Part shown: in pieces, positions 5,283-26,974 of the stretch | Layout of the letters: the number at the start of each line of letters is the position of its first letter | Numbering within the stretch: position 1 is the first letter of the stretch | Source of the DNA: a virus | Virus record (IMG/VR): IMGVR_UViG_3300037560_000029 | Coordinates: 1-47,258 of that record | Reading direction: 5' to 3' (one strand) | DNA length: 47,258 bases | Program-made: the position numbers and the translations under genes | The notes under the pieces: model-generated | The model's database searches: none | Seen by the model: the letters and a program-made list of their open reading frames with translations, nothing else | What the model was told of the DNA's origin: nothing

Positions 5283-7213
5283 ATCATGCCCTCCTTAATT
5301 GCTGCTGGTTTCCACAACTCTTCTGGTGCTTCGTACACTACCTCACTATCCTTCGCTTCTTTGTTGGACCAGTGTGTCCCCACCATCACCCCCGCACCTA
5401 AAGGTACAGTTAGGTTAACGCCGTAGAGTTGGGAAATCATGTTATAACAGTCCACTATCAGGCACTGCTTTGCTAGGCAATGCCAGAGTTCCTTTTCGTT
5501 CGGTGCAATCTCTGCAATAATTGAATCGTGGACCGTGTTTACCAAGAATGAGGACGCATCCTTCATCCGGTGCCATGCGGCCACAATCGCACACGGTATG
5601 ATTTCGGCAGTAGCCAAAGCCTGTACCGGGTAGTTGTAGATGGACGTCGTGTTCGTGATGTACCCGCTCTTCTTCATGTGTGTGTCTGGCCAATAGTATC
5701 TAAGCCCCCATTCAGTAGTTAGATGTTTATCCCGTAGTACTTGCTGCGTCCATCCTTGCTGCGTGTCAGCAATGCTTCTATACTTTTCCTTAAAAGCTTT
5801 GTAGTACGCTTGCTCGTTAGGAGACCCAGAGGTCCCTCCATACAGAGGCTTAAATGTATGGGGCTTTGCTTCCTGTCGTGAGCACCCAATGATAGACGCA
5901 GTGTAGCTATGGATGTCTGTTCCTTGTACGATATCACTAAGCGCCACTCGGTCACGTCCGAGGTGGGCGGCAACACGAAACTCAAGTTGGGCTCCATCAG
6001 CCTCTCCCATGACCCAACCACTGTTACGAGTTGTAAAAAGTGGCTTGAAGTTTCTATTGAGGTTCTGGAATTGGACTCTGTATTGTAACCCTGTACTAGA
6101 GAGACGATGTGTTCTCGTACTGCACTGGTTAAAACTTGCCCGTAACAACCCCCCGTCCACATCAACACATTCTCCAAACTTTCGGAGGTACTTGGTGATA
6201 TCACTGTGGAGTTGTCGCCATGTAGTATGGAGACTGAGGAATCCTCTTTGTCTCTTCGTCGTAGCCACCAACTGCGCCAGAATGGGAGCCGCCACGGACG
6301 GGTCACCAGCAGGGGTAAGAAGTTCGTGTCCTCGAAAGTCTCGGGGGACATTGAATCCAAGATCACCGAAAATGAACTGTCGCATTTGCTTTGGACTGCT
6401 CGGGCTTGCTCCCCCGCAGTACTGTTGGAGTTTAGTAGTAAGTCGTTCATAGCGTAGTTCCTCCGCAGCCAGTGTCTCAGTGACTGCTACATTATCCAGC
6501 TGCATCCCGTTAAACTCTATGTCTGTAAGCGCCGGGGTGACTAGGTTGCGTTGGTAATTTACAGCCTCCAGCCCTCTGTCTTTGAGCAATGCTCTCTGTC
6601 TGAGGAACAGTTCACCCGCAGCTTCGACGTCGCGGATACAATAGTCGAGCAACCATGACTCTGGTATATCCTCGGTTGGTACGCCGTTCTTTATGAGTGC
6701 AGAGACTAGGTCTTTCTTACCCTCTAGTCCATGCCTCTTCAAACATGCTGATAGTCCTAGCTCATGTAGTGCGAAGCGATTGCCTCCCAGTACATAGTCA
6801 GCTATCAGTGTGTCAAATGTTACTACCCGGCGTAAGTCGACGCCACAACGTCTGAGCCACCCGAGCTCAAACTTGGCGTTGTGGGCGACCACGAAATCCG
6901 CTTTGGCGATATCATTGACAAGTTCTTCAAGATTGTATTCGCTTCCAAAGCAGTATTGCACGGACCCACCTGTACTGTGAGCTCGTCGTCCATTGGGAGG
7001 CCTAAGTGAATTGGAGTCATTTGTTTTATTAACACGCCAGCAGGCAAGGATGATTCGATTTCCCTCAGCAAGCGGAGACCCTTTGAGTTCAGTTGTAGTT
7101 TCAAAGTCAAGCGTAACATAGTTATCACTCCAATAGATAGATGGATCAGGGGCCGCCACGTGTGGTGGCAGCCCCGCTAGCTCAACCAAAGTCAGACCAG
7201 AACGCAGCACCAT
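5279..7213 (-). CDS. Family A DNA polymerase with 3'-5' exonuclease domain
   Basis: A 644-residue PolA-type replicative polymerase, the size of T7 gp5. The proofreading domain carries TLDFETT (D36, E38), VAHNAKFEL (111-117) and YCIRD (Y191, D195). In the polymerase domain, motif A is EADGAQLEFR (D406), motif B is RQEAKPHTFKPLYG (R446, K450, F454, Y458) and motif C is VHDS (H562, D563). The dNTP-binding O-helix position (E. coli 762) is Phe. There is no N-terminal 5' nuclease domain; that activity is the separate gene at 3284-4213. The start overlaps the ssDNA-binding gene by 32 bases. It should act with the primase, helicase and SSB encoded just upstream. Confidence 0.95.
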   Translation of the reverse strand: MVLRSGLTLVELAGLPPHVAAPDPSIYWSDNYVTLDFETTTELKGSPLAEGNRIILACWRVNKTNDSNSLRPPNGRRAHSTGGSVQYCFGSEYNLEELVNDIAKADFVVAHNAKFELGWLRRCGVDLRRVVTFDTLIADYVLGGNRFALHELGLSACLKRHGLEGKKDLVSALIKNGVPTEDIPESWLLDYCIRDVEAAGELFLRQRALLKDRGLEAVNYQRNLVTPALTDIEFNGMQLDNVAVTETLAAEELRYERLTTKLQQYCGGASPSSPKQMRQFIFGDLGFNVPRDFRGHELLTPAGDPSVAAPILAQLVATTKRQRGFLSLHTTWRQLHSDITKYLRKFGECVDVDGGLLRASFNQCSTRTHRLSSTGLQYRVQFQNLNRNFKPLFTTRNSGWVMGEADGAQLEFRVAAHLGRDRVALSDIVQGTDIHSYTASIIGCSRQEAKPHTFKPLYGGTSGSPNEQAYYKAFKEKYRSIADTQQGWTQQVLRDKHLTTEWGLRYYWPDTHMKKSGYITNTTSIYNYPVQALATAEIIPCAIVAAWHRMKDASSFLVNTVHDSIIAEIAPNEKELWHCLAKQCLIVDCYNMISQLYGVNLTVPLGAGVMVGTHWSNKEAKDSEVVYEAPEELWKPAAIKEGMI

Positions 7214-7727
7214 CGCTGCTTCCTGATACTAACTCATGTACCTGCACTGAGCGTAACCGGAGGGTAACACCTACTGCCTTGCTCGCTGCGTTGGTGTAAG
7301 GTACGATCTGTCCCTTGAGACGAGCCATTGTGCCACCGTAGACAGGCGCAGTAACAGCAGTCCCATCCGCAGCGTCAAATACAACAGGTCTCTGATAGAA
7401 TGGGTCTCCTTCACGCGGTGTGACTCGTGCTTTGAGCTTAACCCGGAACAATACGTTGCCCGTAGTGTTGCCCTCGTCATCAGTCTCTTCCTCATACACG
7501 GGTGCAGGAGCGTAAGAGTTCTGTTGCTTCACATCAAGGGTGCCAATGAAGTCGTTCAATGTACCTTCAAGACGTGCAATAAGCTCTTGTGCATTCTCAA
7601 AGGGAAGGAGTAACTTGGTTTGGAACACACCTTCAGGGTCGTAGCGTGTATCTGCACGTGTGAGCCACGGGTAGACTAGCTCTCCTACTGGTGTGGTGAA
7701 TACTTCTAGCGTTGGTCTGTCTGACAT
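7182..7727 (-). CDS. T7 gp2.5-like single-stranded DNA-binding protein
   Basis: A 181-residue protein with the features of phage gp2.5-like/DUF2815 proteins: an opening TPVGELVYPWLTRADTRYDPEGVF followed by TKLLLPFENAQEL, a Pro- and charge-rich insert (EEETDDEGNTTGN), and beta strands of an OB fold including FRVKLKARVTPREGD. The C-terminus FWSDFG ends in an aromatic residue close to an Asp, a weak version of the acidic tip that SSBs use to contact polymerase and helicase. It lies directly upstream of the polymerase gene and overlaps it, as expected for a replisome partner. No Shine-Dalgarno problem is seen at start 7727. Confidence 0.85.
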   Translation of the reverse strand: MSDRPTLEVFTTPVGELVYPWLTRADTRYDPEGVFQTKLLLPFENAQELIARLEGTLNDFIGTLDVKQQNSYAPAPVYEEETDDEGNTTGNVLFRVKLKARVTPREGDPFYQRPVVFDAADGTAVTAPVYGGTMARLKGQIVPYTNAASKAVGVTLRLRSVQVHELVSGSSDGAAFWSDFG

Positions 7728-7728
7728 G

Positions 7729-8220
7729 TTATTGTTCTCCAGTTATTATGTCTCTAGCTCGTTGTAATCGTTTGTATATCACAGCCTCAGTACACGCGTA
7801 GTCCATGGCAAGTTGCAACACAGTACGTCCGTCAATGTAATGAGAGTGTGCGGTAGCATACACCAGAGGAGACAGGTCCAGCAATCTGTTCCTAACCTCC
7901 TCTGATATGATTATTTCGTCAGGCGCTGCCGACATGTGCTCTGCACTTTGTCCGGTCAAGTTCCTGTTGATTGATTTGCCATGCTCTTGCTCTATCTCCC
8001 TACGCCTCTTGTCTTTGTTGTGTAGGTTAGCAGCTTGTTGGTGTGCTATTACTTCAATCATCTTGAAGGCTACAAACCTAGTTGCTACCCTTCCGGCTCG
8101 GTCTAACTCCATGAGTTTGATGTACGCGTCCTGCGCTATGTCCTCTGCCTCTTCGGTACCGCTTACTGTTGCTCTCGCAACTGCAATTAAATCTTTAGCG
8201 TATTCTTCTGTTATAGTCAT
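7729..8220 (-). CDS. ECF-like RNA polymerase sigma factor
   Basis: A 163-residue protein laid out like an ECF sigma factor. Region 2 is seen at about residues 22-75 (EEAEDIAQDAYIKLMELD, then FVAFKMIEVIAHQQAANLHNKDKRRRE), and region 4 with its helix-turn-helix at about 112-160 (LLDLSPLVYATAHSHYIDG, then LAMDYACTEAVIYKRLQRARDII). Such factors replace the host sigma on core polymerase and direct it to phage promoters; phiEco32 is the known example. The gene follows the only sizeable gap in this stretch of the operon, and that gap holds a copy of the repeated 31-35 bp motif. No single-subunit RNA polymerase is present, so middle or late transcription probably depends on this protein. Confidence 0.8.
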   Translation of the reverse strand: MTITEEYAKDLIAVARATVSGTEEAEDIAQDAYIKLMELDRAGRVATRFVAFKMIEVIAHQQAANLHNKDKRRREIEQEHGKSINRNLTGQSAEHMSAAPDEIIISEEVRNRLLDLSPLVYATAHSHYIDGRTVLQLAMDYACTEAVIYKRLQRARDIITGEQ

Positions 8221-9749: not shown

Positions 9750-9934
9750 GCGAACCACGCAGTAAAGATAGGTAGTGGTATTTCATCGTAATCCCTCAGT
9801 TCGTGGGGTCTGACAGGTGCGTACCACCATGACTTCCAGTACACACTGCCGTTGTGTAGATATCTCTGGTTTGACCCAGTATATATCAGTCTCCAATAGT
9901 CCCCCTTGAAGTCTGTGAGGTCAATAACGAGCAT
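9746..9934 (-). CDS. Hypothetical protein with YTGSNQRYLH repeat, 62 aa
   Basis: Begins MLVIDLTDFKGDYWRLIYTG and ends FTAWFA. It carries the same IYTGSNQRYLH segment as the next gene, encoded by an identical 32-bp stretch, but outside that segment the proteins differ (NGSVYWKSWWYAPVRPHEL here). It overlaps the primase stop upstream by 49 bases and the next start by ATGA. Function unknown. Confidence 0.55.
   Translation of the reverse strand: MLVIDLTDFKGDYWRLIYTGSNQRYLHNGSVYWKSWWYAPVRPHELRDYDEIPLPIFTAWFA
9855..9886. repeat. 32-bp perfect direct repeat, copy 2
   Basis: Second copy of the repeat at 9697-9728. The flanking base differs on each side (A versus G before; C versus G after), so 32 bp is the full identical length. 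Confidence 0.9.
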
Positions 9935-10680
9935 AATTCTGTCTCCTCCATATCTTTTAGGTCCTCTTCTAGTGGGAGTACCTTCACATCATCCCACAAG
10001 AGGGCATATTTCTGTGCTAACTGGAACGCCTTGCGTGTTACATCTTGATCCAGTGCTACAATAATAGGTCGCGGGGCATACTCAGCTATTTCACGAGCCC
10101 GGTCAAGCCCGATTCCATGGCCGAGCAGTGCCACCGCATTGATGTACACAGAGGCTCGAACGGCGGAGGGAATGTCCTCAACTATCACAGTACCACTGTG
10201 CGGTGTGGTCTTGTACCAACTGAGTCCTTCTCCCTTCTCTACGTACGTGAGAGCCTTGGTACGCGACGTTGTGTTCAGAGCACGTAACACCCACCCCCTG
10301 TGGGTATCGTTCGCTGCACGGACACTCATAGCCACTCGGCCCCCATATTCGGTTGTCCAGTACCAATTAGGTACATCACGGAGCAACCATTTATCATAGA
10401 TGGCATCTGCCACCTTCGGTGGGACTTCGAACAATACTCCGTCCCACGTCTTTGGTAAAGACTGTGTCTTACTCTTAGAAGTCGTAAATCCAACACTATG
10501 GGTTGCACCCTTAGCGCCACATTTAGCTCTAAAGCACTGCCATACCAACCCTTGGTTCCTTGTAATGGAGAGTGTCTTCTCCTTAGACATACCTCCCCCA
10601 CAAATAGGGCAGATCACTCTGAGTGATTCTCCCTCGGAGAGATTACTACCAAGGATAATAATTTCTGAGTTAAAACTCAT
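9886..10680 (-). CDS. DNA primase with zinc-binding and TOPRIM-like domains
   Basis: A 264-residue protein. An N-terminal zinc site is formed by CPIC (24, 27) and CFRAKC (49, 54), as in T7 gp4 primase. A TOPRIM-like core follows: VIVEDIPSAV (E168, D169) and IIVALDQDVTRKAFQLAQ (D211, D213). It would make RNA primers for the family A polymerase together with the separate DnaB-type helicase. Its ATG lies 21 bases after copy 2 of the repeated regulatory motif. No helicase domain is fused to it. Confidence 0.85.
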   Translation of the reverse strand: MSFNSEIIILGSNLSEGESLRVICPICGGGMSKEKTLSITRNQGLVWQCFRAKCGAKGATHSVGFTTSKSKTQSLPKTWDGVLFEVPPKVADAIYDKWLLRDVPNWYWTTEYGGRVAMSVRAANDTHRGWVLRALNTTSRTKALTYVEKGEGLSWYKTTPHSGTVIVEDIPSAVRASVYINAVALLGHGIGLDRAREIAEYAPRPIIVALDQDVTRKAFQLAQKYALLWDDVKVLPLEEDLKDMEETELCSLLTSQTSRGTIGD

Positions 10681-11128: not shown

Positions 11129-11337
11129 ACAGGCCTCCATGTATCGCCCACATCACTGTAGAATCGGAACGTTAAGGGTGCTCCATCTACGTTAACTAGG
11201 GCAGTGAATTGTGTACTAAGCGTGTCTACAATGGTCGCTGTCACCCATACTGGCACATTGTGCCCCATCACCCAGTCTATCAATACTGTAATCCCGGGGT
11301 GCAGGTAATGGTTCTTCTTCTTGTATCGTATCTTCAT
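11125..11337 (-). CDS. Hypothetical protein, 70 aa
   Basis: Begins MKIRYKKKNHYLHPGITVLI and ends DVGDTWRPV. Alternating hydrophobic residues (VWVTATIVDTLSTQFTALVNV) suggest an SH3-like small beta barrel. It overlaps the ATP-grasp stop upstream by 4 bases and the 55-residue gene downstream as ATGA. No family is recognised, and whether it belongs to the amide-ligation cassette is unclear. Confidence 0.6.
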   Translation of the reverse strand: MKIRYKKKNHYLHPGITVLIDWVMGHNVPVWVTATIVDTLSTQFTALVNVDGAPLTFRFYSDVGDTWRPV

Positions 11338-12167
11338 CCTGCTCTCCTCCGTCTCTGATAAGCCCCGCCCTGTAAGACTGGTAAAAGTTCAATGAAGGCT
11401 CGTCGATAGCTGTCAATTGTCGCTCCCTCAAGACCCGGGGCTGTATTGACCTCATACACGTATCCTTGTGCTTCATGACGATTCCACCCAATATCCACAG
11501 CGCCAAAATCAAGACCAACAGCAGCAACAGCGGCGATAGCAAGAGGGCCAAGGCTATCAGGGCAAGATATTTCATCACGACAATACACCCAACCATTATT
11601 GACGTTCCGAATCTGATAATTAATGGAATCATTATCTACTCCTCCTCGTCTTCGCTTATGCTGAGTGTCGATGGTAACTCCACTGAGAACGTGGATTCGG
11701 TATTCCTCGGACTTCTTGACGTATTGCGTGTAGAGCGGGGCCTCGTCAAGGGATTCGTTGCCCAGCCTAGCCCGTGAGTTTGTTGGGCGGTGGACGCTTG
11801 TGGGGCGGTAAAGTCGTAGACCCCGGGCCTGAGAGGCGCGGAGGAGTCTTCTGGCAACAACGGTTCTTCCATCGTCATACCACCTCTGCGCCTCGGATTG
11901 ATCGGTGGTAAAGGCGGGTTGTCTGACACCGGCCTCGGCGAACGCTCTTGCACTTCTAAGCTTGTCGGACGCAACGGCAACGGCTTCCGGGTTATTAATG
12001 TACGTGGCATTTGGGAACCTCCTTTCTGAGCAACCCCAGTTAATGATAGTGTTAAATGTACCATGACGAGCTACTTGTGCGTCTGTAGCTAGTAGTATTC
12101 CTGTAGCACGGGCTAGTGATTTAGCACCCCTACTGCGTAGGTTGTATGACTCAATTCGTAAGCTCAT
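11334..12167 (-). CDS. ATP-grasp ligase
   Basis: A 277-residue RimK-like ATP-grasp protein. The N-terminus NPEAVAVASDKLRSARAFAEAGV (59-81) is the usual lid region, with Lys69 the likely nucleotide contact. EYRIHVLSG (155-163) and LDFGAVDIGW (219-228), with YVYEVNTAPGLEG (237-248, Glu239 and Asn241), are the metal-binding signatures. ATP-grasp enzymes join a carboxylate to an amine through an acyl phosphate. It overlaps the amidotransferase stop as ATGA, and its neighbours are two amidoligases and a gamma-glutamylcyclotransferase, so it probably forms a peptide-like bond in a shared pathway. The true substrate is not evident. Confidence 0.85.
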   Translation of the reverse strand: MSLRIESYNLRSRGAKSLARATGILLATDAQVARHGTFNTIINWGCSERRFPNATYINNPEAVAVASDKLRSARAFAEAGVRQPAFTTDQSEAQRWYDDGRTVVARRLLRASQARGLRLYRPTSVHRPTNSRARLGNESLDEAPLYTQYVKKSEEYRIHVLSGVTIDTQHKRRRGGVDNDSINYQIRNVNNGWVYCRDEISCPDSLGPLAIAAVAAVGLDFGAVDIGWNRHEAQGYVYEVNTAPGLEGATIDSYRRAFIELLPVLQGGAYQRRRRAG

Positions 12168-13603
12168 GAGTTAGCCTCGGTGTACTCCTCAACGCACCCA
12201 AAGCATAGAGGTTGGTTATTCATCTCCCCACCCCATGTGAGGTCTTCTGCGTCGGTAGCGGGGAATAAGGGTACACTACACATATTACATCCATCCGCAC
12301 ATAAGAGTTTCCATGCCTCCACGGTGATATCGCCATGTGGTCCTCGTAGTAGTGTGCCTTTCTTTTCTTCTTCTTCCTCCTCCTCCTCTTCGTTATACTC
12401 GTACATATCTTTTGGAGGCAGGTCTCCATTCCACGAATACCATTGAGGCCGTACTATAATCACTGGATCATTCGAGTCTTCACTCTTGCTTACGTGTGAT
12501 ACTCCGATTGGGCACACAGTCCATGACTGGTCTTTGAACTGATTTAGCATTGATCTTCGTGTGCAATACATTACAGATTCCATCCATGTCTTCCACTCGG
12601 GGTGCCACAGCAATCCTCTCGTCATACCTTCTGAGTAATCTTTTATGTTCCACGTTTCGAAAGATTCTGGTTCAAAGAGATAATTCTCTTTGACATCGAG
12701 CTGGTACCATTCTTCCAGCATTACCTTATGACCGTCCGGTATATTTCTACGTTCCCCGTTGATTACAATACGTCCAGCAAGATATCCTTCTCTATTGAGT
12801 ATGCTTGCACTCTCTCTTCGTCGCTGCGCAACAGTATCTCTGTTAGGCCAAGTGTACCCACCAGTGTTCCCATAATGGGAAGTCGCTGGCTTTGGGGTGA
12901 TCTCAGTGACCTCTGGTGTTAAGTCCCCCTTTATGTACTTCAACAGTTGATACGTTCCCAACTGCCATATGTTAGCTGGCTTCTGTTGTGAGGTCTGGAA
13001 CCTATGGAAGATGGAGTTCAGCATGTGTCCCTCACTCATTAAGTATAAGATATCATTTTGAGGACCAAGAGCTAGATGTAGTGGTCTCTCCGGGTTGCGT
13101 ACTATGTTGATTGACTTGTCCCGTAAGTCAAACCAAACTAGAGCATACGCGCCCTCCAATTTACCCAGTAAAGTTCCCGCTTCTTCGGGTGCTACTTTGT
13201 TTAAGCTGTGTGCTATCTGCTCACTGTCTACTTTAAACTTAAATTCTCGGTGTGGTACAGTATGTAGACTGCGTAATGTACCGTTGTGCATAAGAATGAT
13301 ATTCTCGTGGTGAAAAGGATGTGCATTGTCTGTAGTGATATCACCTACAGTAGCATGACGAGTGTGACCCATCATACACCACGAGTTCTTCTCCCTTTCC
13401 TTAAAGGAGGCACTCGACAAGAATCTAGCAGCGGGCATAGCATTTTTAGCCCACGACCACTTGAAGTCTTCACTCACTCCCATGATTCCAGTACTGTGCA
13501 TTCCTCGTAATGCACTCATGTACAGGGCCTCCGCAAAGAACTTATCCTTTACGAAAGGCTTAGTCTTGTTGTCGAGGGTAATAAATCCTACAATTCCACA
13601 CAT
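12164..13603 (-). CDS. Class II glutamine amidotransferase with C-terminal extension
   Basis: A 479-residue protein starting MCGIVGFITLDN, so Cys2 becomes the N-terminal nucleophile after Met removal. GHTRHATVGDITTDNAHPF and HENIILMHNGTLR are the conserved glutaminase blocks that bind Gln and form the oxyanion site. This Ntn-hydrolase domain (about 1-230) frees ammonia from glutamine. The rest is unusual: it carries a run of nine Glu (about residues 396-404), and a Cys-rich end (CADGCNMC and CFGC) that looks like a zinc ribbon. No GlmS, PurF or AsnB synthase domain is seen, so ammonia is probably passed to a separate ligase of the cassette. It is directly adjacent to the amidoligase gene (TAAATG). 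Confidence 0.85.
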   Translation of the reverse strand: MCGIVGFITLDNKTKPFVKDKFFAEALYMSALRGMHSTGIMGVSEDFKWSWAKNAMPAARFLSSASFKEREKNSWCMMGHTRHATVGDITTDNAHPFHHENIILMHNGTLRSLHTVPHREFKFKVDSEQIAHSLNKVAPEEAGTLLGKLEGAYALVWFDLRDKSINIVRNPERPLHLALGPQNDILYLMSEGHMLNSIFHRFQTSQQKPANIWQLGTYQLLKYIKGDLTPEVTEITPKPATSHYGNTGGYTWPNRDTVAQRRRESASILNREGYLAGRIVINGERRNIPDGHKVMLEEWYQLDVKENYLFEPESFETWNIKDYSEGMTRGLLWHPEWKTWMESVMYCTRRSMLNQFKDQSWTVCPIGVSHVSKSEDSNDPVIIVRPQWYSWNGDLPPKDMYEYNEEEEEEEEEKKGTLLRGPHGDITVEAWKLLCADGCNMCSVPLFPATDAEDLTWGGEMNNQPLCFGCVEEYTEANS

Positions 13604-14482
13604 TTATTGTTCTCCAAGTACATTCCAGTTAAGAGTTTCCCAATGAGGTATCATACGGCCCACCATAAGGGCGGCGGCATCCTCTGCTTGTTCCTGAATA
13701 TCAGGGTGTATTTCGTATGCGCCGCCAAATAAATCTTCCTGCACCTTGGCAAGGCCCACGTTGCTGTAATGATCTAATACTCCTATGGGGTCTCGGTAGT
13801 TGCACCCCTGTTGTTGTAGCCGAATCACGAAGTCGCACCAACTTCGAATAGCGTCAAAGTCATTAGTGCAGTACGGCTGTCGCATCTCGATTGTACCGAA
13901 TCGTACAAGGGACTGGAAATTCAATGCACTGTACTTATCAGTTTGTATTATAGATAACGAAGGACGTACTTTCACCTTTTGGTCCGCGCCGCCCGGCTCA
14001 TAAGACCGTATACGAGTCATGTCCCGGCCTAAGGCTTGAATTATAGGACGATTTAGCCATAATGGAACAGCAAATGTGTTTTCTTCACGATTAACAGCGT
14101 ACGTGGCATAAATTGTAGGTTCTACAAGGATGTAAAGCGCCGCAACACTCCATATCTGTCCCACGGAGAAGGGGCGCATATTAATATGTACGTGTAATCC
14201 ACATCTATGCGTAGCAACAGCCGCCATGTAGTCTACTGTGGCCTCTGCCACGCTAAGTGCGTTCTCTATCTCACCGTACCATAGAGGATTAGAGATGAAC
14301 TCTACCCCACCAGTGCGTAGAGACCCATCACCTTCAATGCGCCATGGGCTCGGGTTTATCCGTGGCATCCTTCGTGTCCTTTCGTATTCTAACTCAATAC
14401 CTAAAGCAGGTGTTGTATTTAACCCGTTACGCAGGACACCGCGTTGCGCGGAGAATTTAGAGAGTTTTTGGTCTATAAGCAC
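13604..14482 (-). CDS. Amidoligase of the Amidoligase_2 family (glutamine synthetase fold)
   Basis: A 292-residue protein with the family signatures in order: GIELEYERT (E30, E32), GDGSLRTGGVEFISNP (D52, E61), HRCGLHVHIN (H97, H99) and EMRQPY (about 197). These residues bind metal-ATP in the GS-like fold that activates a carboxylate and joins it to an amine. It overlaps the 201-residue gene by 10 bases and abuts the amidotransferase. It is probably one of two carboxylate-amine ligases of the cassette; the substrate is unknown. Confidence 0.85.
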   Translation of the reverse strand: MLIDQKLSKFSAQRGVLRNGLNTTPALGIELEYERTRRMPRINPSPWRIEGDGSLRTGGVEFISNPLWYGEIENALSVAEATVDYMAAVATHRCGLHVHINMRPFSVGQIWSVAALYILVEPTIYATYAVNREENTFAVPLWLNRPIIQALGRDMTRIRSYEPGGADQKVKVRPSLSIIQTDKYSALNFQSLVRFGTIEMRQPYCTNDFDAIRSWCDFVIRLQQQGCNYRDPIGVLDHYSNVGLAKVQEDLFGGAYEIHPDIQEQAEDAAALMVGRMIPHWETLNWNVLGEQ

Positions 14483-15078
14483 AGTAAACCTTCCTTTTGT
14501 AACTTAAATTCAGTGCGCGCACTCATTAACGGATCAGCTTCGAGTGGTTCGTACCGATATCCGTTAGATTCTCGGATTATTTCTCCTACCATTCGCCCAT
14601 GGCATCGAATATTCACCGCTCCTACTCCCTCTGCGCTTAGGATGAAGTCCTTCGAGACTGCCACACTTCGTTGTCCTCCCTGACTTATCATGTCGAACGC
14701 TGTCCCCATCAGAGGATAGAGTAATGGAGTCAGTAATAAAGACATGTGTCCTGCATTAATTCCATCAATGCCGTCAGGCGGAGCGTACTCGGACCACAGG
14801 ACGTAGTAGTGTGCAAGAGTAGCAGACCGCCGTGCAGATCGTGTAGACCGCCTCGCTATCTGTACCGCTCCGTCGCGATAGTTTATTGCTCGTGGTATAG
14901 GGAACAAGCACTCTAACATAGCAGGGTCCGTATTTCGATAGTTTTGAGAGGGGTTTTTACGAGCTAGAAGAACACCATCCCTCGCTGTTACGTACACAGG
15001 TCCACGTTTAGCGTGGAGCATGTAGGTATTGTTGTAGTAGAGTGCAAAATCTCGTGAAGGTACGTTGAGCGGGTTCAT
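14473..15078 (-). CDS. Uncharacterised cassette protein, 201 aa
   Basis: Begins MNPLNVPSRDFALYYNNTYM and shows a basic stretch ARRSTRSARRSATLAHYY and a helical LLLTPLLYPLMGTAFDM segment too short and polar at its ends to be a clear membrane span. It lies between the two amidoligase genes and overlaps both (10 and 4 bases), so it was probably selected as part of the same pathway. A substrate-delivery, acceptor or second-subunit role is possible. No family is recognised. Confidence 0.65.
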   Translation of the reverse strand: MNPLNVPSRDFALYYNNTYMLHAKRGPVYVTARDGVLLARKNPSQNYRNTDPAMLECLFPIPRAINYRDGAVQIARRSTRSARRSATLAHYYVLWSEYAPPDGIDGINAGHMSLLLTPLLYPLMGTAFDMISQGGQRSVAVSKDFILSAEGVGAVNIRCHGRMVGEIIRESNGYRYEPLEADPLMSARTEFKLQKEGLLCL

Positions 15079-15923
15079 ACCATCAGCCCCGCTAATTTGA
15101 CCTGATCCATAATGATATGAGCACGTTCCAATTTATCTTCTCGGGGCACATCGCTCTCGTATGAAAGTAATTGTTTTACTTCAAGCCATGGAATCTTAGC
15201 AATGCTGCTACGTATTGTAGTGCCTGTGTGTGCTTCTAGGTACTGTACAAGACGATCTGCAGTCATTCCGATATAATTACCAAAACTTTCATCAACGCAC
15301 CACCACGTGCTGGGAGTTCTGTATTCAATACCATAAGGCTTAGGCCGAAAGATGCCGGGCCGCCCGTAATGTTTCATGCGGGTGTGGCTTCCAAGAGTAC
15401 TCTGTGGATTGTAGCCGTCAATATATGGCTTAACGCTCAAGAATACATCACATAATAGGGCAACAACAAAGGGAGGACAGTTAAAGTTGCCTCCAAGATG
15501 AATATGCCCTCCGGCACTACGCCAATTGCTCTTTTTGAGTGAATTTGGAATGTCTCGCACCTTTCCAGCAGTGTAAGCATCGAAATCTGGCTCACAACCA
15601 AATGTTTGGGCCTGTTCTGATGTCAATTGAGTTGGAGTAAATTCAATAGACGACGCATTAGCATATAACGACTGGTTTGAACTGAGGAATTCTTCTGTAA
15701 TTAGACGTTTACCATAAGAAATAGCGTTCCCAAGATTTTCCCCCTGCGTGAGAATAGGTATGCCTAATTCAATGGTGACATTATCTTCATGACAGAAATA
15801 CCCCTCTCCATCGTCGTCGCCAAGTAGGTGAGGTGCTTGCTTTGTGCCCGGAATAATTCCTATCGACGGCACGATACGCCCGTTATCATACAGGAAGAAC
15901 TCTGGATCAGCTCCAATAGTCAT
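15075..15923 (-). CDS. COOH-NH2 ligase, phiEco32-type amidoligase
   Basis: A 282-residue protein of the 'phiEco32-like amidoligase' type. Signature blocks: GADPEFFLYDNGRIVPSIG (Glu8), EDNVTIELGIP (Glu52), AGGHIHLGG (H140, H142) and GIEYRTPSTWW (Glu200, Arg202). The GS-like fold, DPEF opening and HIH pair set it apart from the Amidoligase_2 protein 1.5 kb away, so the phage has two different amidoligases. Enzymes of this family are predicted to link carboxyl and amino groups in peptide-like molecules. Its start overlaps the upstream stop as ATGA. Confidence 0.85.
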   Translation of the reverse strand: MTIGADPEFFLYDNGRIVPSIGIIPGTKQAPHLLGDDDGEGYFCHEDNVTIELGIPILTQGENLGNAISYGKRLITEEFLSSNQSLYANASSIEFTPTQLTSEQAQTFGCEPDFDAYTAGKVRDIPNSLKKSNWRSAGGHIHLGGNFNCPPFVVALLCDVFLSVKPYIDGYNPQSTLGSHTRMKHYGRPGIFRPKPYGIEYRTPSTWWCVDESFGNYIGMTADRLVQYLEAHTGTTIRSSIAKIPWLEVKQLLSYESDVPREDKLERAHIIMDQVKLAGLMV

Positions 15924-16315
15924 ATTGTACTCCGTTTGTCTTTGATTTTCACAGTGTTAAAGAGTTTAGAGGTCTCAAAGTCTCTTGTCCATGGTGCATT
16001 TGCGTATAAATCTCCAAGTTTTGGTGGTGGTGTGTATATAGGCGTAGCCACCACAGGGAGATTCTTGTTCATGTCTCGTCTTACTGCTACAGTTCCCGGT
16101 GTACTCTCATAGATGAGGGGTGTTCGTGAGCGTTCCCCTGACTTATCTAACGAATAGAGGCCTATGAAGTTCAACTTGGTAAAGTTCCAAGTGTTTTTCA
16201 TGCCTACAAGAGCATTCCATGCTGCTTCATCACATCCTGCGTCGATAGTTCCAGTTAATGTAGCTAGTTGTCCACTTGGGGTGTAACCAGCTGCACGATA
16301 TTCATACTTAAGCAT
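15920..16315 (-). CDS. Uncharacterised cassette protein, 131 aa
   Basis: Starts MLKYEYRAAGYTPSGQLATL from ATG 16313-16315, which overlaps the last codons of the cyclotransferase gene by 8 bases; earlier in-frame ATGs lie deep inside that gene and are rejected. The N-terminus LKYEYRAAGYTPSGQLATLTGTIDAGCDEAAW has a beta-alpha pattern, and the C-terminus is Pro- and Lys-rich. Its place between the gamma-glutamylcyclotransferase and the COOH-NH2 ligase suggests a pathway role. No family is recognised. Confidence 0.6.
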   Translation of the reverse strand: MLKYEYRAAGYTPSGQLATLTGTIDAGCDEAAWNALVGMKNTWNFTKLNFIGLYSLDKSGERSRTPLIYESTPGTVAVRRDMNKNLPVVATPIYTPPPKLGDLYANAPWTRDFETSKLFNTVKIKDKRSTI

Positions 16316-16856
16316 TAATTTCGATGCCGTCTTGGGAGTTCCAGAACTTGAGTTCAGGTTCAGTGGGTCGCCAGATACATGATTCGACACGATCATACCT
16401 TGTAGCATCGAGGTAGCCAGCTCCGCGAGGTAGTGTATACATCCATACGCGACGACTATGGATATCAGAACGGTACTTAAATCGTTCATACCAGTTGGGG
16501 TGTGATTCTAGTAAATCCAGACATGCTAAACCCTCCTCATCTGTCGCGTACACTTCACCAAATATGGTACACAGTGGTTCATTGGGGTCAGCATGGACTA
16601 CCCCGGGGAAGCCTCCAAAAGATATCATTGCAAATGATCCCGTAATGGAGTCCATCCCCATGTATTTGGCATCAATGTTCTTCATCAAGACATTGTTACC
16701 TTGATGGGATTTCAGAGAGCCATAGACCAAGACTCGCACAGAGCCTTGCTCGTCGTTATTGTCCCCATCCGTCGAGGACTGTTGCTGCGAGTCGCCGGGC
16801 GTCGTGGACTCGTTCGTTGATTCTGCTTTGATTAATGCTTTTGATTCTTGGATCAT
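16308..16856 (-). CDS. Gamma-glutamylcyclotransferase-like protein (GGCT/AIG2)
   Basis: The core has the GGCT signatures: VLVYGSLKSHQGNN (Tyr45-Gly46-Ser47-Leu48, which bind the gamma-glutamyl group), GEVYATDEEGL and CLDLLESHPNWYERF, with Glu117 in the catalytic position. The enzyme would release 5-oxoproline from gamma-glutamyl compounds, or bind such groups. The ATG at 16856 has a good AAAGGA sequence 8 bases upstream but overlaps the preceding gene by 101 bases and gives 39 low-complexity residues first. An alternative GTG at 16737-16739, with AAGG just upstream and no overlap, would give a 143-residue protein of normal size. I list the longer form. Confidence 0.8.
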   Translation of the reverse strand: MIQESKALIKAESTNESTTPGDSQQQSSTDGDNNDEQGSVRVLVYGSLKSHQGNNVLMKNIDAKYMGMDSITGSFAMISFGGFPGVVHADPNEPLCTIFGEVYATDEEGLACLDLLESHPNWYERFKYRSDIHSRRVWMYTLPRGAGYLDATRYDRVESCIWRPTEPELKFWNSQDGIEINA

Positions 16857-17439
16857 TATTAGTATCCTTTACAAATTGTAAGAGTTTCTCATGTTCTATT
16901 TTGATCAGTTTGTTAATAGTGGGCCAGTTGGGGGTGAGTATCCAGCCTTGTATTTGTTTTTGTGTACGCGTACTTGTTACTGGGCCTGATGTAACAATAG
17001 CTCCGAGTTCATTATCCACATACCATTTCTTGAAGCTCCGCGTGGTAAAGCTACCCAGATAGACGTCTCCTTCCCCCGACATATTATCTGTTAGATATAT
17101 GAGGGCTTGTTTTGGTACAGACTGTAACACAGCTGTAAACATAGTATCTAAAGGAACTGCTGTTCTTATTGCCGGTATGTCTGTCCTCTGCCAACATTTC
17201 GATTTCTGTGTTAAAGTTCTAACCATGAAACTGAGAGATGATTCAACAGATTGTTGATTTTGTGGAGAACCCAACAACCTCCCCGGCCTCTCTTGGTCTT
17301 TGCACGCATTCAACAATCCGTTTAGTTCTACTAGGTGTGATGTCTTTGTGATATTTACCCCAAATAAGCGATAAAGTACATGAACGCCACAACAGCCGGG
17401 CATGCCTTGTCCTTGCCACACACTATTTTTGATGTACAT
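16756..17439 (-). CDS. PGCC-motif protein B (paralogue), 227 aa
   Basis: Starts MYIKNSVWQGQGMPGCCGVH from ATG 17437-17439, which overlaps the upstream stop as TAATG. The PGCC motif (about residue 13-16) is followed by a helix (VHVLYRLFG), and later by ALIYLTDNMSGEGDVYLGSF, TTRSFKKWYVDN and QKQIQGWILTPNW. The upstream gene has the same blocks in the same order, so the two are tandem paralogues. Paired cysteines next to a conserved Asp-Asn and Gly-Asp would fit a thiol enzyme or metal site, but no catalytic triad can be assigned. It leads into the GGCT gene and so probably works in the amide-ligation cassette. Confidence 0.7.
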   Translation of the reverse strand: MYIKNSVWQGQGMPGCCGVHVLYRLFGVNITKTSHLVELNGLLNACKDQERPGRLLGSPQNQQSVESSLSFMVRTLTQKSKCWQRTDIPAIRTAVPLDTMFTAVLQSVPKQALIYLTDNMSGEGDVYLGSFTTRSFKKWYVDNELGAIVTSGPVTSTRTQKQIQGWILTPNWPTINKLIKIEHEKLLQFVKDTNNDPRIKSINQSRINERVHDARRLAATVLDGWGQ

Positions 17440-18005
17440 TAGAGTATGCCCCCCCAAAGCGAACTGCCGGGTCTGCGCACTCGTCTACGAAACTGTGTGT
17501 ACAGTTCGCATCCTGCTTTGATGCGCACGTTGCAGAGTTTTGGTTTAAGAATGACGCAGTAACCCTCTAACCTACGAGCAGACTTCTTACTTGTTGTGGT
17601 GTCAGCTAAGTTGTTCTTACTGAGCCATAACACAAAGTTCTGTGTACTAAACGGACCTTTATGCGTATCTCCAACGCGGGTTACATTGTCACACATAAAC
17701 CACAAAAGCCCACCGTAACGATCTTTCATGTCTTTTAATACAGCGCAGAATGCAACCTCAATCGGGATAGAGCGGCCAACGACCTGTGTCATGTTCGTGT
17801 CTCTGATAGAATCCACAAGACGGGAAGGTTTTATCTGTGTAACAGGAAAGTTTGGTCCTTTTCGTTTAGCTTTCTTTTGTAGGTCTGCAAGAGCAGTTCC
17901 GGAAGGATACATCGCGCCTAACCGAAACAGTATCTTTGATTGACAACACCCCGGAAATTCTCTTATCCGCCAGTGTGGTCTGTAAATGAGTTTTCCTGTA
18001 TCCAT
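17439..18005 (-). CDS. PGCC-motif protein A (paralogue), 188 aa
   Basis: Starts MDTGKLIYRPHWRIREFPGC. It aligns with the next gene: EFPGCCQSKILFRLGA against GMPGCCGVHVLYRLFG; GLLWFMCDNVTRVGDTHKG against ALIYLTDNMSGEGDVYLG; FSTQNFVLWLSKNNL against FTTRSFKKWYVDNEL; and RRLEGYCVILKPKL against KQIQGWILTPNW. Overall the conserved parts are PGCC, hydrophobic-DN-x-GD, and FxTxxFxxW. The family is not one I can name. The C-terminus is Arg-rich (QFRRRVRRPGSS). The gene begins the cassette and is translationally coupled to its paralogue. Confidence 0.7.
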   Translation of the reverse strand: MDTGKLIYRPHWRIREFPGCCQSKILFRLGAMYPSGTALADLQKKAKRKGPNFPVTQIKPSRLVDSIRDTNMTQVVGRSIPIEVAFCAVLKDMKDRYGGLLWFMCDNVTRVGDTHKGPFSTQNFVLWLSKNNLADTTTSKKSARRLEGYCVILKPKLCNVRIKAGCELYTQFRRRVRRPGSSLWGGIL

Positions 18006-19101: not shown

Positions 19102-19509
19102 CTAACTCCGTGAGCGACGAGTAGCTTTCTTTTTCTTGGCTACTTTCTTCTTGGCAGGCTTCCGTGTCGCTTTGTAGGCATCAACAGTTATCTCAGTTAT
19201 TGAGATTCGTTGTGCTAACGCGCCGGAGAGGGTGTCATTTCTCTTACTTAGACCAGACAAACCGTTACCGTTGTCGTTGAACCGATAGTAATGACCACCC
19301 TCGGTGGAAATGATAACAGTCCCGGCGGGGAGAGTACGTTTTTCTTTTGCGGCGCGCACAATATCCGTCCCATAACGGTTGTAAGGAATGACAAATTCTG
19401 CTGCGAGTCGATATGCACCATCAGGCATACTTGTTGATAACACAATAATGCCTTTAGGCAAACTTGCCGGTGTGACCGCTTTGAACGTTTTTGCGATAGT
19501 TTGTTTCAT
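19102..19509 (-). CDS. Hypothetical protein with Lys/Arg-rich tail, 135 aa
   Basis: Starts MKQTIAKTFKAVTPASLPKG from ATG 19507-19509, overlapping the upstream stop as ATGA. The N-terminal part looks like a small beta domain (GAYRLAAEFVIPYNRYGTDIV). The C-terminus (TRKPAKKKVAKKKKATRRSR) is histone-like and should bind nucleic acid. Whether it acts on host or phage DNA cannot be told. Confidence 0.65.
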   Translation of the reverse strand: MKQTIAKTFKAVTPASLPKGIIVLSTSMPDGAYRLAAEFVIPYNRYGTDIVRAAKEKRTLPAGTVIISTEGGHYYRFNDNGNGLSGLSKRNDTLSGALAQRISITEITVDAYKATRKPAKKKVAKKKKATRRSRS

Positions 19510-19685
19510 GGTATCTCCCGATATCCTATGCCTTGACAATGTATACAACCACTGCCTTGGGCTTTAGTGATGTGTCGGCGTCTATCTTTGCCTTCACTGT
19601 CTTGGTACTGCTCAAATACCACAACAGGACGTGATGCTTTGTCATGGCCCGTGCCTTTGCAGGCCTTACAAATCTGTTTAGTCAT
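19506..19685 (-). CDS. DnaJ-like zinc-finger protein, 59 aa
   Basis: Starts MTKQICKACKGTGHDKASRP from ATG 19683-19685. It carries CKACKGTG near the N-terminus and CIHCQGIG near the C-terminus, two CxxCxG half sites typical of the DnaJ zinc-binding domain, here without the rest of DnaJ. It probably binds one zinc ion. It overlaps the upstream gene by 8 bases and the downstream gene by ATGA. Confidence 0.6.
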   Translation of the reverse strand: MTKQICKACKGTGHDKASRPVVVFEQYQDSEGKDRRRHITKAQGSGCIHCQGIGYREIP

Positions 19686-19950
19686 CGAGACTACAGTCTC
19701 CCATGTGTACTTCACAGTCTTGGTCGCGAGTACACTTATGTCGTCGTCCCGACTCCTGAATGCAGGGAGGGGCATCACGCCACACACCAGTCCTGAGGTA
19801 CTGGAACTTACCTGCTCTGACCAAGAGCATATAGCGAGCTTCACTGGCAGGATAACCACAGTTAGGACACTCAACACGAGCCTTGACGCGGGGACATGTA
19901 TTCATTGTAGTGAACAGAGGTTCTTGGTACTTGATGAGCTTAGTAGTCAT
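19678..19950 (-). CDS. Cysteine-rich hypothetical protein, 90 aa
   Basis: Begins MTTKLIKYQEPLFTTMNTCP and contains ECPNCGYPASEARYMLLVRAG followed by further cysteines and histidines (PPCIQESGRRHKC, CEVHMGDC). The spacing suggests one or two zinc sites. It overlaps the neighbouring genes by 8 and 4 bases. No family is recognised. Confidence 0.6.
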   Translation of the reverse strand: MTTKLIKYQEPLFTTMNTCPRVKARVECPNCGYPASEARYMLLVRAGKFQYLRTGVWRDAPPCIQESGRRHKCTRDQDCEVHMGDCSLDD

Positions 19951-24663: not shown

Positions 24664-25175
24664 AGGTTCGGTACGGATGGGTCAAGATTGACGGGATAAA
24701 GGGTAAACTCATACGTAACCCAGCATATCCCGGCCCCAAGGTAGGACTCAATGGGTGGGTCTCTACGGATAGAATAGGCACAAAGGATAAACCAGAGTTC
24801 CAACTGGCTCTCACAGAGTCCATAGCCAAGGAAGGGGTTAGAAACCCAATCATTGTCTATGCACTTGAATCAGGGGATTATCTTGGATTTGGTGGGTCTA
24901 GGCTCAATGCAGCACGGGATGCTGGCTTAGAGCGAATACCAGCCTTAATCAATGACCACTGTAACAGATATCGGTATCTTCGTGAGATTACTCCAGAGAA
25001 CTGGCAAGACGTATTTACTGACATACCTCGGTACTTCGAGTTTACGGAGGATGGGGTAGACTACCATTACTCCTTAGAGAAGAATAGACGAATGCATTTT
25101 GATCCCGCAGGTATAGTATGGCGTAAAGGTGAACCCCTCTCGGAGTTTAGCTGGATTAAATCATGGGAGGGTTAA
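24639..25175 (+). CDS. ParB-like (ParB/Srx fold) protein, 178 aa
   Basis: Contains SIAKEGVRNPIIVYALESGD followed by YLGFGGSRLNAARDAGLERIPALI, the ParB/sulfiredoxin-like core with its G-x-R/S-x-x-A pattern that binds and hydrolyses nucleotide. The C-terminus (YHYSLEKNRRMHFDPAGIVW) is different from ParB. It overlaps the methyltransferase by 25 bases. An alternative TTG at 24660, overlapping the methyltransferase stop as TTGA, would begin directly at KVRYGWVKI and may be the true start. Phage ParB-like proteins of this kind often accompany methyltransferase and glycosyltransferase genes. Confidence 0.6.
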   Translation: MLHTASILKVRYGWVKIDGIKGKLIRNPAYPGPKVGLNGWVSTDRIGTKDKPEFQLALTESIAKEGVRNPIIVYALESGDYLGFGGSRLNAARDAGLERIPALINDHCNRYRYLREITPENWQDVFTDIPRYFEFTEDGVDYHYSLEKNRRMHFDPAGIVWRKGEPLSEFSWIKSWEG

Positions 25176-26974
25176 TAGGAGCAGGTCCGGGTATAGTTCC
25201 ACCGAATAATCCTCCAGAATGGATCAGTACGCCCTCCATTTCAGTCACAGAGTCGGTGGGCGGCACACACGATCTAAAAACAAATACCTTCGATCAAGAG
25301 GACGACACCCTTACGTTTGTTAAAGTAACAGGCACATTTGAGGCGTGGATGAGCTTGGACAGTGGTGGTGTAATTACAATCACCAGTTCGGCGGTAGCGG
25401 GGACATACACGGGATTTTCTTTCAGTGCAGATGATGGTACAAACAGCCCAGTAACAAGCGACACGTTTAGCATTGTTGTTAACGCCGTCGTTCCCTTGGC
25501 CGCGTTCCCAGGGGCCGAAGGGTTTGGCACTGATACTACCCACGGTAGGGGCGGTATAGTTGTTGAGGTAACAAACCTAAACGAGAGCGGTGCGGGTAGT
25601 TTCCGTGCTGCCTTAGAGATGACCGTCCCAAGAATAGTTATATTCACGGTTTCTGGAACAATAGCATTAGAGGATCGTATTATACTGCTTGCCGCTAATT
25701 CTGATGTTTTTGTGGCAGGACAAACAGCACCGGGCGACGGCATATGTATAAAGAGTGATTCTGGCGAGGAACTATTATCTTTTAGTCGTAAGGCTGCAAC
25801 AACACCGTTTCACGATGGGCTATTTCAGCATATTCGTATGCGGCATAGTGCGCAGTGGCGGAATGATGATACTACCAATACTGTTCTGGCCGATAATTTC
25901 GTCGCTGCGATGGGAACGCACGACCTTGTGTTCGATCATTGTTCATTCACTTGGCATGGCGATGAGGCATTTAGTCTTTATGGTGGCATAGTCAATGATT
26001 TTAGTGGTGGTATCTTCAATATTACAATTTCGCATTGCATTATTGGTGAAGGCGCTATAACTTCGACTGAGCATAATTATGGTCCGTTGATGAGTGGTAT
26101 GTGGAGAATAAATCAAGACCAGTACAATATATCAATCCACCATAACTTGTGTATTCACTCCTTTATAAGAAATTTCAAGATGGATGCTGGATCAGGAGAG
26201 GACAATCGAGGCCACCAGTTCAGTAATAATATTCATTACAATTGCTATGGTCAAAACTACAGCGCCTTCGTTAATTGGAACTCCGGCGACAGCAGAATGT
26301 GGATTGATGTCATAAATGACTATTATCAAGTGGGACCACAAGATACCAGCAATACAAGGCCATTTAGAGTTGGACAATCGCCCGCACCAAAAGATGTTCC
26401 TCCCGGCGGTACAGTTTATCAACCCTCGTTATATTTAGTTGGCAGTACGTGGCGCAACCAAGACGGCACCAACAGTACGAATAACAACGAGGCAGACAAC
26501 TTTACAGAAAGTGATGTTTCGCCTCTAGGTTATATTAAGAGTCAATACACGCCGAGACTAGGATGGGTTGAGCGAGGAACAGCACAGACAACGCAGCCCG
26601 CTAATCCGGTAACAATCCAATCAGCACAGGCGGGATATGATTCTGTTGTGGTTGGAGAGGACTGTGGTGCCAAGCCGCACGATTCTGTTGATGCAAGGCT
26701 GGTGGGCGACCCGGAAGATGAGGGCGGCTACAGCATGACAAATGTTGGCCCTCCTTGGGGAACCGGCTCCTATCCAACACTATCAACTGCCGCCTTTTAT
26801 GCGGGCGATGAAGCGAAACCTGTAGGCGATACCAGTGGTAATGGACTGCCTGACTATTATCAAGTAGATGTTCTTGGAAAAGACATTGGTGATGCTTATA
26901 ACCCAGCCGATACTTTCACTGTAGGTAATGACTATTCTGATATTGAGAACTGGATCATTAGTGTGACGCTATGA
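25163..26974 (+). CDS. Tailspike/depolymerase with pectate lyase-like (PL1) beta-helix
   Basis: A 603-residue protein. Residues about 15-110 look like a cadherin/Ig-type repeat (TFDQEDDTLTFVKVTGTFEAW, FSFSADDGTNSPVTSDTFSIVV). From about 113 the pectate lyase pattern begins (AFPGAEGFGTDTTHGRGGIV, VTNLNESGAGSFRAAL, IVIFTVSGTI), running through repeated short beta turns with DHCSFTWH, ISHCIIGEG and IHHNLCIHS, as in a right-handed beta-helix. Near the C-terminus GNGLPDYYQ is a calcium-type loop. It probably cleaves an acidic host polysaccharide. The gene lies upstream of terminase, far from the tail genes, which is unusual. Confidence 0.75.
   Translation: MGGLIGAGPGIVPPNNPPEWISTPSISVTESVGGTHDLKTNTFDQEDDTLTFVKVTGTFEAWMSLDSGGVITITSSAVAGTYTGFSFSADDGTNSPVTSDTFSIVVNAVVPLAAFPGAEGFGTDTTHGRGGIVVEVTNLNESGAGSFRAALEMTVPRIVIFTVSGTIALEDRIILLAANSDVFVAGQTAPGDGICIKSDSGEELLSFSRKAATTPFHDGLFQHIRMRHSAQWRNDDTTNTVLADNFVAAMGTHDLVFDHCSFTWHGDEAFSLYGGIVNDFSGGIFNITISHCIIGEGAITSTEHNYGPLMSGMWRINQDQYNISIHHNLCIHSFIRNFKMDAGSGEDNRGHQFSNNIHYNCYGQNYSAFVNWNSGDSRMWIDVINDYYQVGPQDTSNTRPFRVGQSPAPKDVPPGGTVYQPSLYLVGSTWRNQDGTNSTNNNEADNFTESDVSPLGYIKSQYTPRLGWVERGTAQTTQPANPVTIQSAQAGYDSVVVGEDCGAKPHDSVDARLVGDPEDEGGYSMTNVGPPWGTGSYPTLSTAAFYAGDEAKPVGDTSGNGLPDYYQVDVLGKDIGDAYNPADTFTVGNDYSDIENWIISVTL

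Follow-up and report, generated by a model that had tools for sequence, protein, structure and literature searches.

A divergent, apparently intact amidoligase cassette in a virus genome, and acidic-tail protein arrays in related phages as a possible clue to its substrate

Introduction

The amidoligase cassette of phiEco32 and other phages has been named the 'peptidoglycan modification cassette', and superinfection exclusion has been predicted as its role (PMC5498523, PMC6256558, PMC11945000). In phage PSA-HP1 the cassette is expressed immediately after infection (PMC7082346), and in PaP3 the range ORF22-56, which spans a COOH-NH2 ligase recognised by its match to family E of the present locus (ORF48), has been classed as 'middle' (PMC4707531). 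Hundreds of phages sequenced so far have cassettes of this kind, among them candidates for therapy directed at Pseudomonas and E. coli, and variants of their gene order are seen in phiEco32, Bas88, PA11, Bjorn and phiM6 and in Klebsiella, Vibrio and Proteus phages. Iyer 2009 and Hardies 2013 are said to be the founding papers behind the published peptidoglycan view. The cassette was proposed in 2009, and no experimentally tested product was found in the literature searched, a search outside which the two founding papers lay. This agrees with a preliminary description of the present locus, which had noted related sets in phiEco32 and a product that is not established.

Here we analyse the locus in its complete virus record of 47,258 bases (the window), which also carries portal, terminase and family A DNA polymerase genes. 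The locus is almost certainly a divergent copy of the phage amidoligase cassette, and its sequence predicts that the copy is catalytically intact.

Results

Gene content and gene order

Nine coupled ORFs run on the minus strand from 18005 to 11334, upstream of the primase, helicase and DNA polymerase genes, in the order gA-gB-gC-gD-gE-gF-gG-gH-gI. Families of homologues are called below by the letter of the gene in the window, and GGCT stands for the gamma-glutamylcyclotransferase.

17439..18005, minus: gA, PGCC protein of 188 aa, paralogue of gB (BLASTP with gB, E 4e-12)
16756..17457, minus: gB, PGCC protein of 233 aa (226 from the next ATG, M7), divergent member of the GNAT-like CCG family (CCG profile, E 1.7e-4)
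16308..16739, minus: gC, gamma-glutamylcyclotransferase (GGACT/AIG2), 143 aa from GTG 16739 (PF06094, E 1e-14)
15920..16315, minus: gD, lineage-specific protein of 131 aa (weakly similar ORFs occupy the corresponding position in L012-L015)
15075..15923, minus: gE, COOH-NH2 ligase, GS-like fold family (phrog_3815, E 6e-36; PF14395, E 4e-7)
14473..15078, minus: gF, conserved core protein of 201 aa found together with gE (family profile, E 3.6e-15)
13604..14482, minus: gG, Amidoligase_2, GTG start (PF12224, E 1e-15; phrog_7469, E 2e-31)
12164..13603, minus: gH, class II glutamine amidotransferase with a C-terminal Zn-ribbon-like motif (GATase_6, E 6e-14; phrog_4736, E 2e-64)
11334..12167, minus: gI, RimK-like ATP-grasp ligase (phrog_2599, E 1e-66; RimK-family structures by profile)

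Thus COOH-NH2 ligase, Amidoligase_2, class II amidotransferase and RimK-like ATP-grasp ligase all lie in one coupled block, to which the GGCT gene is linked. The preliminary description had read from these letters seven to nine consecutive coupled genes with a Cys2 amidotransferase, an ATP-grasp ligase, a GGCT, two amidoligases of different families and a PGCC paralogue pair, together taking up one seventh of the genome. All of this stands: every ORF was found, the enzyme identities were confirmed by Pfam and PHROG profiles, the two amidoligases fall into separate families, gA and gB are paralogues, and the 6.7 kb of the cassette make up 14% of the record.

From gA to gI the junctions of the ORFs are -19, -101, -8, -4, -4, -10, 0 and -4 nt. 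The value of -101 belongs to gC as an ORF of 182 aa from ATG 16856, the form in which it had been described; translation probably starts instead at the in-frame GTG 16739, which removes this odd overlap and leaves 143 aa, and neighbouring gC ORFs in related loci have 147-168 aa. Domain and PHROG profile searches gave no family match for gD. None of the cassette proteins has a strongly hydrophobic segment by hydropathy.

Two other ORFs of the window may be recorded here. A small protein at 19506-19877 (minus) has a DnaJ-like cysteine-rich motif (CKACKGTGH...CIHCQGIGY), and a pectate-lyase-like protein at 25163-26974 (plus), probably a tail spike, lies directly ahead of the packaging genes.

Active sites of the enzymes

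Judged from alignments of 27-90 homologues, and thus from sequence only for E, G, H, I and C, the cassette enzymes appear to retain nearly all family-invariant catalytic residues, and the active sites do not look destroyed. In the alignments gE keeps D6, E8, E52, H140, H142, E200 and R202, gG the Glu/His/Arg set of its family, gH C2, R82, N107, G108 and D126, gI the ATP/Mg-binding residues K69, D225, E239 and N241, and gC the VYGSL motif and E117. Departures were also seen: T206 and H45 at near-invariant positions of gE (H45 otherwise only in L012), A138 in gG where 61 of 62 sequences have Cys, and A114 and L117 at near-invariant positions of gI, the glycine-rich loop of which is partly altered. 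Both profile similarity and ATP/Mg-binding residues place gI among the RimK-like ATP-grasp ligases.

The C-terminus of gH carries a CxxC...CxxC motif (residues 439-470), in which C439, C467 and C470 are kept in 85-93% of 60 homologues. The database name of this family, 'glutamine-fructose-6-phosphate aminotransferase', is a misnomer by domain content. A GlmS identity was rejected, with Pfam giving only GATase domains and no C-terminal sugar-isomerase domain, and the best glmS-type match, NCBIfam glmS, falling far under its cut-off.

Distribution of the cassette

Linked cassette genes recur in hundreds of phages. About 310 deposited phage records match E, and likewise about 310 match I, which also has relatives in 548 IMG/VR stretches. 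Hosts listed for the E-bearing phages are Proteobacteria. At the DNA level the cassette has no similarity to deposited phages, and a search of plasmids found no carriage of it. The ATP-grasp query gave 24 matches among bacterial and archaeal contigs, the best of them mostly on short contigs from MAGs that are possibly phage.

A reduced variant, G-H-I without E and F, occurs in L033, L036, L038, L042, L043, L044, L077, L082, L083 and L088, and Arthrobacter phage Wheelbite (L117) has GGCT-amidoligase-GATase.

Protein F, a core component beside E

The preliminary description had left two proteins unrecognised. This holds for the 131-aa gD, and it does not hold for the 201-aa gF, which belongs to a conserved core family of the cassette found in this work. 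A profile of F from which the window and its closest relatives had been left out picked out gF among the ORFs of the window with E 3.6e-15, the next ORF having 0.03. In 60 of the 70 loci whose sequence extends far enough upstream of G, E and F precede G (in two of them with the GGCT gene between), and the ten loci that lack E all lack F as well; several of these ten look closely related, so that they represent fewer independent losses. The co-occurrence suggests that E has a dedicated partner in F. Searches for related loci that started from gF or gB alone came back empty, as the two proteins change too rapidly in evolution.

A confident AF2 model of gF was obtained (pLDDT 92). Profile searches of PDB with F or E gave no match, and the best hit of a PDB fold search with the F model (E 0.23, TM about 0.22) was discarded. 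Against viral models, the strong matches were uncharacterised phage proteins, for example of Salinivibrio phage CW02. In PHROG, 40 of 48 members of the F family fall into phrog_11055, a group of no known function, and the window's own gF has no match.

The PGCC pair and the CCG family

The PGCC pair is part of a fast-evolving, GNAT-like family adjoining such cassettes, which we call CCG after its N-terminal CCG motif; its second trait, a C-terminal NxNSxN-type motif, cannot be made out in gA or gB. Of 89 loci, 22 have CCG proteins, between one and three in each. With a profile built without gB, gB ranked at the top of 254 window ORFs, and gA matched weakly (E 0.38). One member, L037:5126-5530, was modelled in place of gB (pLDDT 89), and its top PDB matches were GNATs, with probabilities up to 1.0 but marginal E-values (0.02 or worse) and TM up to 0.58; the acetyl-CoA loop R/QxxGxG/A after beta-4, read by eye, is absent from this member. 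In L086, a CCG protein (9755-10240) and amidoligase G (6864-7811) have a common C-terminal tail (TSVEVLADYIIAQLGE, TPVEAMADYIISQLGE).

Arrays of acidic-tail proteins in related phages

In nine phages the cassette genes alternate with genes for 7-17 small KOW/SH3-like proteins per phage, which have a common acidic C-terminal tail. The carriers are five IMG/VR records of 66-71 kb (G001-G005; the records of L035, L052, L055, L074 and L079) and the isolates phiM6 (L138) and RHph_N3_13, N3_19 and I3_11 (L160-L162). Within one phage the tail is nearly uniform, and it differs between phages (YDPxQMGDRDDDI, YSPxQNGDTDDDI, YDPxQEPDDEDDV, YKxDQEPxEEEETL, YDPxQxGDTEDDI). In RHph_N3_13 a tail protein follows most cassette genes, and the tail proteins of phiM6 are SmphiM6_83-97. 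Tail genes lie at a median of 4-246 bp from a cassette gene in the five records and of 815 bp in phiM6; other ORFs are 7-19 kb away, and the permutation P values assume independent ORFs and ignore shared gene order.

The tails were met during clustering of small ORFs, and their pattern was defined only afterwards; independent of this post hoc pattern are only a tail-only scan and the Rhizobium phages, both within the same lineage. The scan returned nine further contigs. Eight of them have cassette genes beside tail genes, five of these being fragments with GGCT as the sole cassette gene, and the ninth is a fragment of 5.7 kb. A control with internal segments gave 0 groups, compared with 7 tail groups, six of them of the acidic kind. 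The relative HMO-2011 has neither cassette nor tail array in 50 of its 55 kb, and it is the only cassette-free control for the arrays.

In the tail codons positions 1 and 2 are conserved and position 3 is free, and the bodies of the proteins are at chance identity. The tail is thus conserved as peptide, not as DNA. A cause at the DNA level, such as a promoter or ribosome site serving the gene that follows, was rejected because third codon positions are free.

Near the cassette of the window, no group of three or more ORFs has a common C-terminal tail, and arrays of this type are absent from most cassette phages. Another shared tail, AILRKAQEK, is found in G-H-I loci, and the proteins of L044 start with MNNEPVAW; these look like a separate modular family.

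Discussion

According to the enzyme set, glutamine would be the source of ammonia released by H. The ATP-dependent activation of carboxylates, and their joining to amines or ammonia, would fall to E (with F), G and the RimK-like I, while C would strip or edit gamma-glutamyl groups. All cassette enzymes are predicted to be cytoplasmic and would act ahead of late gene expression.

What these enzymes act on is a matter of our judgement, and the ranking of substrates below reflects no computed values. Arrays of shared-tail proteins are interleaved with the cassette in relatives, and therefore we narrowly favour, as a tentative choice, acidic protein tails, to which amino acids or ammonia would be ligated, over peptidoglycan precursors. 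There are precedents for such chemistry: RimK glutamylates ribosomal protein S6 at its C-terminus, and LysW has an acidic tail that is the target of LysX-type enzymes. In a fuller form, which we regard as doubtful, E-F, G and I would recognise the array tails and modify them with glutamine-derived ammonia or amino acids, F and CCG would serve as dedicated partners, and one phage or host protein would be the substrate in lineages without arrays. Since the window and most cassette phages have no tail array, the tail model does not directly explain them. Moreover, the array phages apparently form one lineage, and the adjacency to the cassette may reflect shared descent. The arrays may nonetheless be a newly found clue to the substrate, and they offer a concrete candidate in phages of culturable hosts (Sinorhizobium, Rhizobium). 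Another candidate, a conserved carrier protein among the small ORFs between H and I, was rejected: such a protein is shared by only three loci, and the window has none.

In the peptidoglycan alternative, unusual gamma-glutamyl, amide or peptide linkages would be placed on peptidoglycan precursors, and the altered envelope would block superinfecting phages. Peptidoglycan of Proteobacteria has gamma-D-Glu-mDAP stems, a fitting target for the E-bearing phages with their proteobacterial hosts. The proposal is the published prediction (PMC5498523, PMC6256558, PMC11945000), and immediate expression in PSA-HP1 is consistent with exclusion (PMC7082346). However, no supporting experiment was found in the literature, enzymes that look cytoplasmic would reach only precursors, and the interleaved arrays of tail proteins are left unexplained. 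We consider modification of peptidoglycan possible, though not probable.

An unlikely product is a soluble metabolite, gamma-glutamyl or amidated, that might inhibit the host, act as a signal or counter a defence. The ligases are accompanied by GGCT and, in some relatives, by a C26 gamma-glutamyl hydrolase, which would suit such a compound, and the title of Iyer 2009 reportedly concerns novel metabolites in part. However, RimK-like ligases more often use carboxylates of peptides or proteins, and no transporter or tailoring enzyme is linked to the cassette.

It is very improbable that the cassette comprises auxiliary genes which aid the host in incorporating ammonia into amino acids, as proposed for the Planctomycete phage-ZRK32 (PMC10945688). 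The available part of that paper suggests a Pseudomonas origin of the cassette genes and describes better growth on nitrate or ammonium after addition of the phage, but it reports no single-gene tests; moreover, the ZRK32 record (OP650935.1, L115), flagged UNVERIFIED_ORG, covers only part of a genome, the module is seldom met outside phages, and two ligases, F and I would be superfluous for assimilation. DNA modification is not favoured, as genes for modifying bases were not seen next to the cassette.

The pairing of E and F names a partner that is probably required for reconstitution in vitro.

Among known systems, the cassette of PSA-HP1/RIO-1, known here from the paper alone, has the same enzyme set and the same predicted function (PMC5498523). 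Sinorhizobium phage phiM6 has E, F, G, H, I and GGCT in common with the window, and Rhizobium phages RHph_N3_13, N3_19 and I3_11 have these six by annotation and order. Unlike the window, phiM6 has the order H-E-F-G-I-H-C, and these four phages encode a C26 hydrolase as well as 13-17 proteins with the shared C-tail, which flank the cassette or alternate with its genes.

In phiEco32 (phi32_86 to phi32_77) and its Kuravirus relatives, E, a protein at the F position (205 aa), G, H, I and GGCT are present as in the window. The phiEco32 cassette is a single block adjoining primase and helicase and also contains small ORFs, as does that of Bas88; its G, H and I proteins are larger than those of the window, GGCT follows I, and no PGCC pair was found. 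Alcaligenes phage vB_Af_QDWS535 additionally has a class I amidotransferase-like ORF (judged by eye), unlike the window. In this phage the order E-F-G-H-I is identical to that of the window, GGCT is located upstream as in the window, two CCG proteins lie between GGCT and E-F-G-H-I, and the proteins of the two phages are 36-43% identical.
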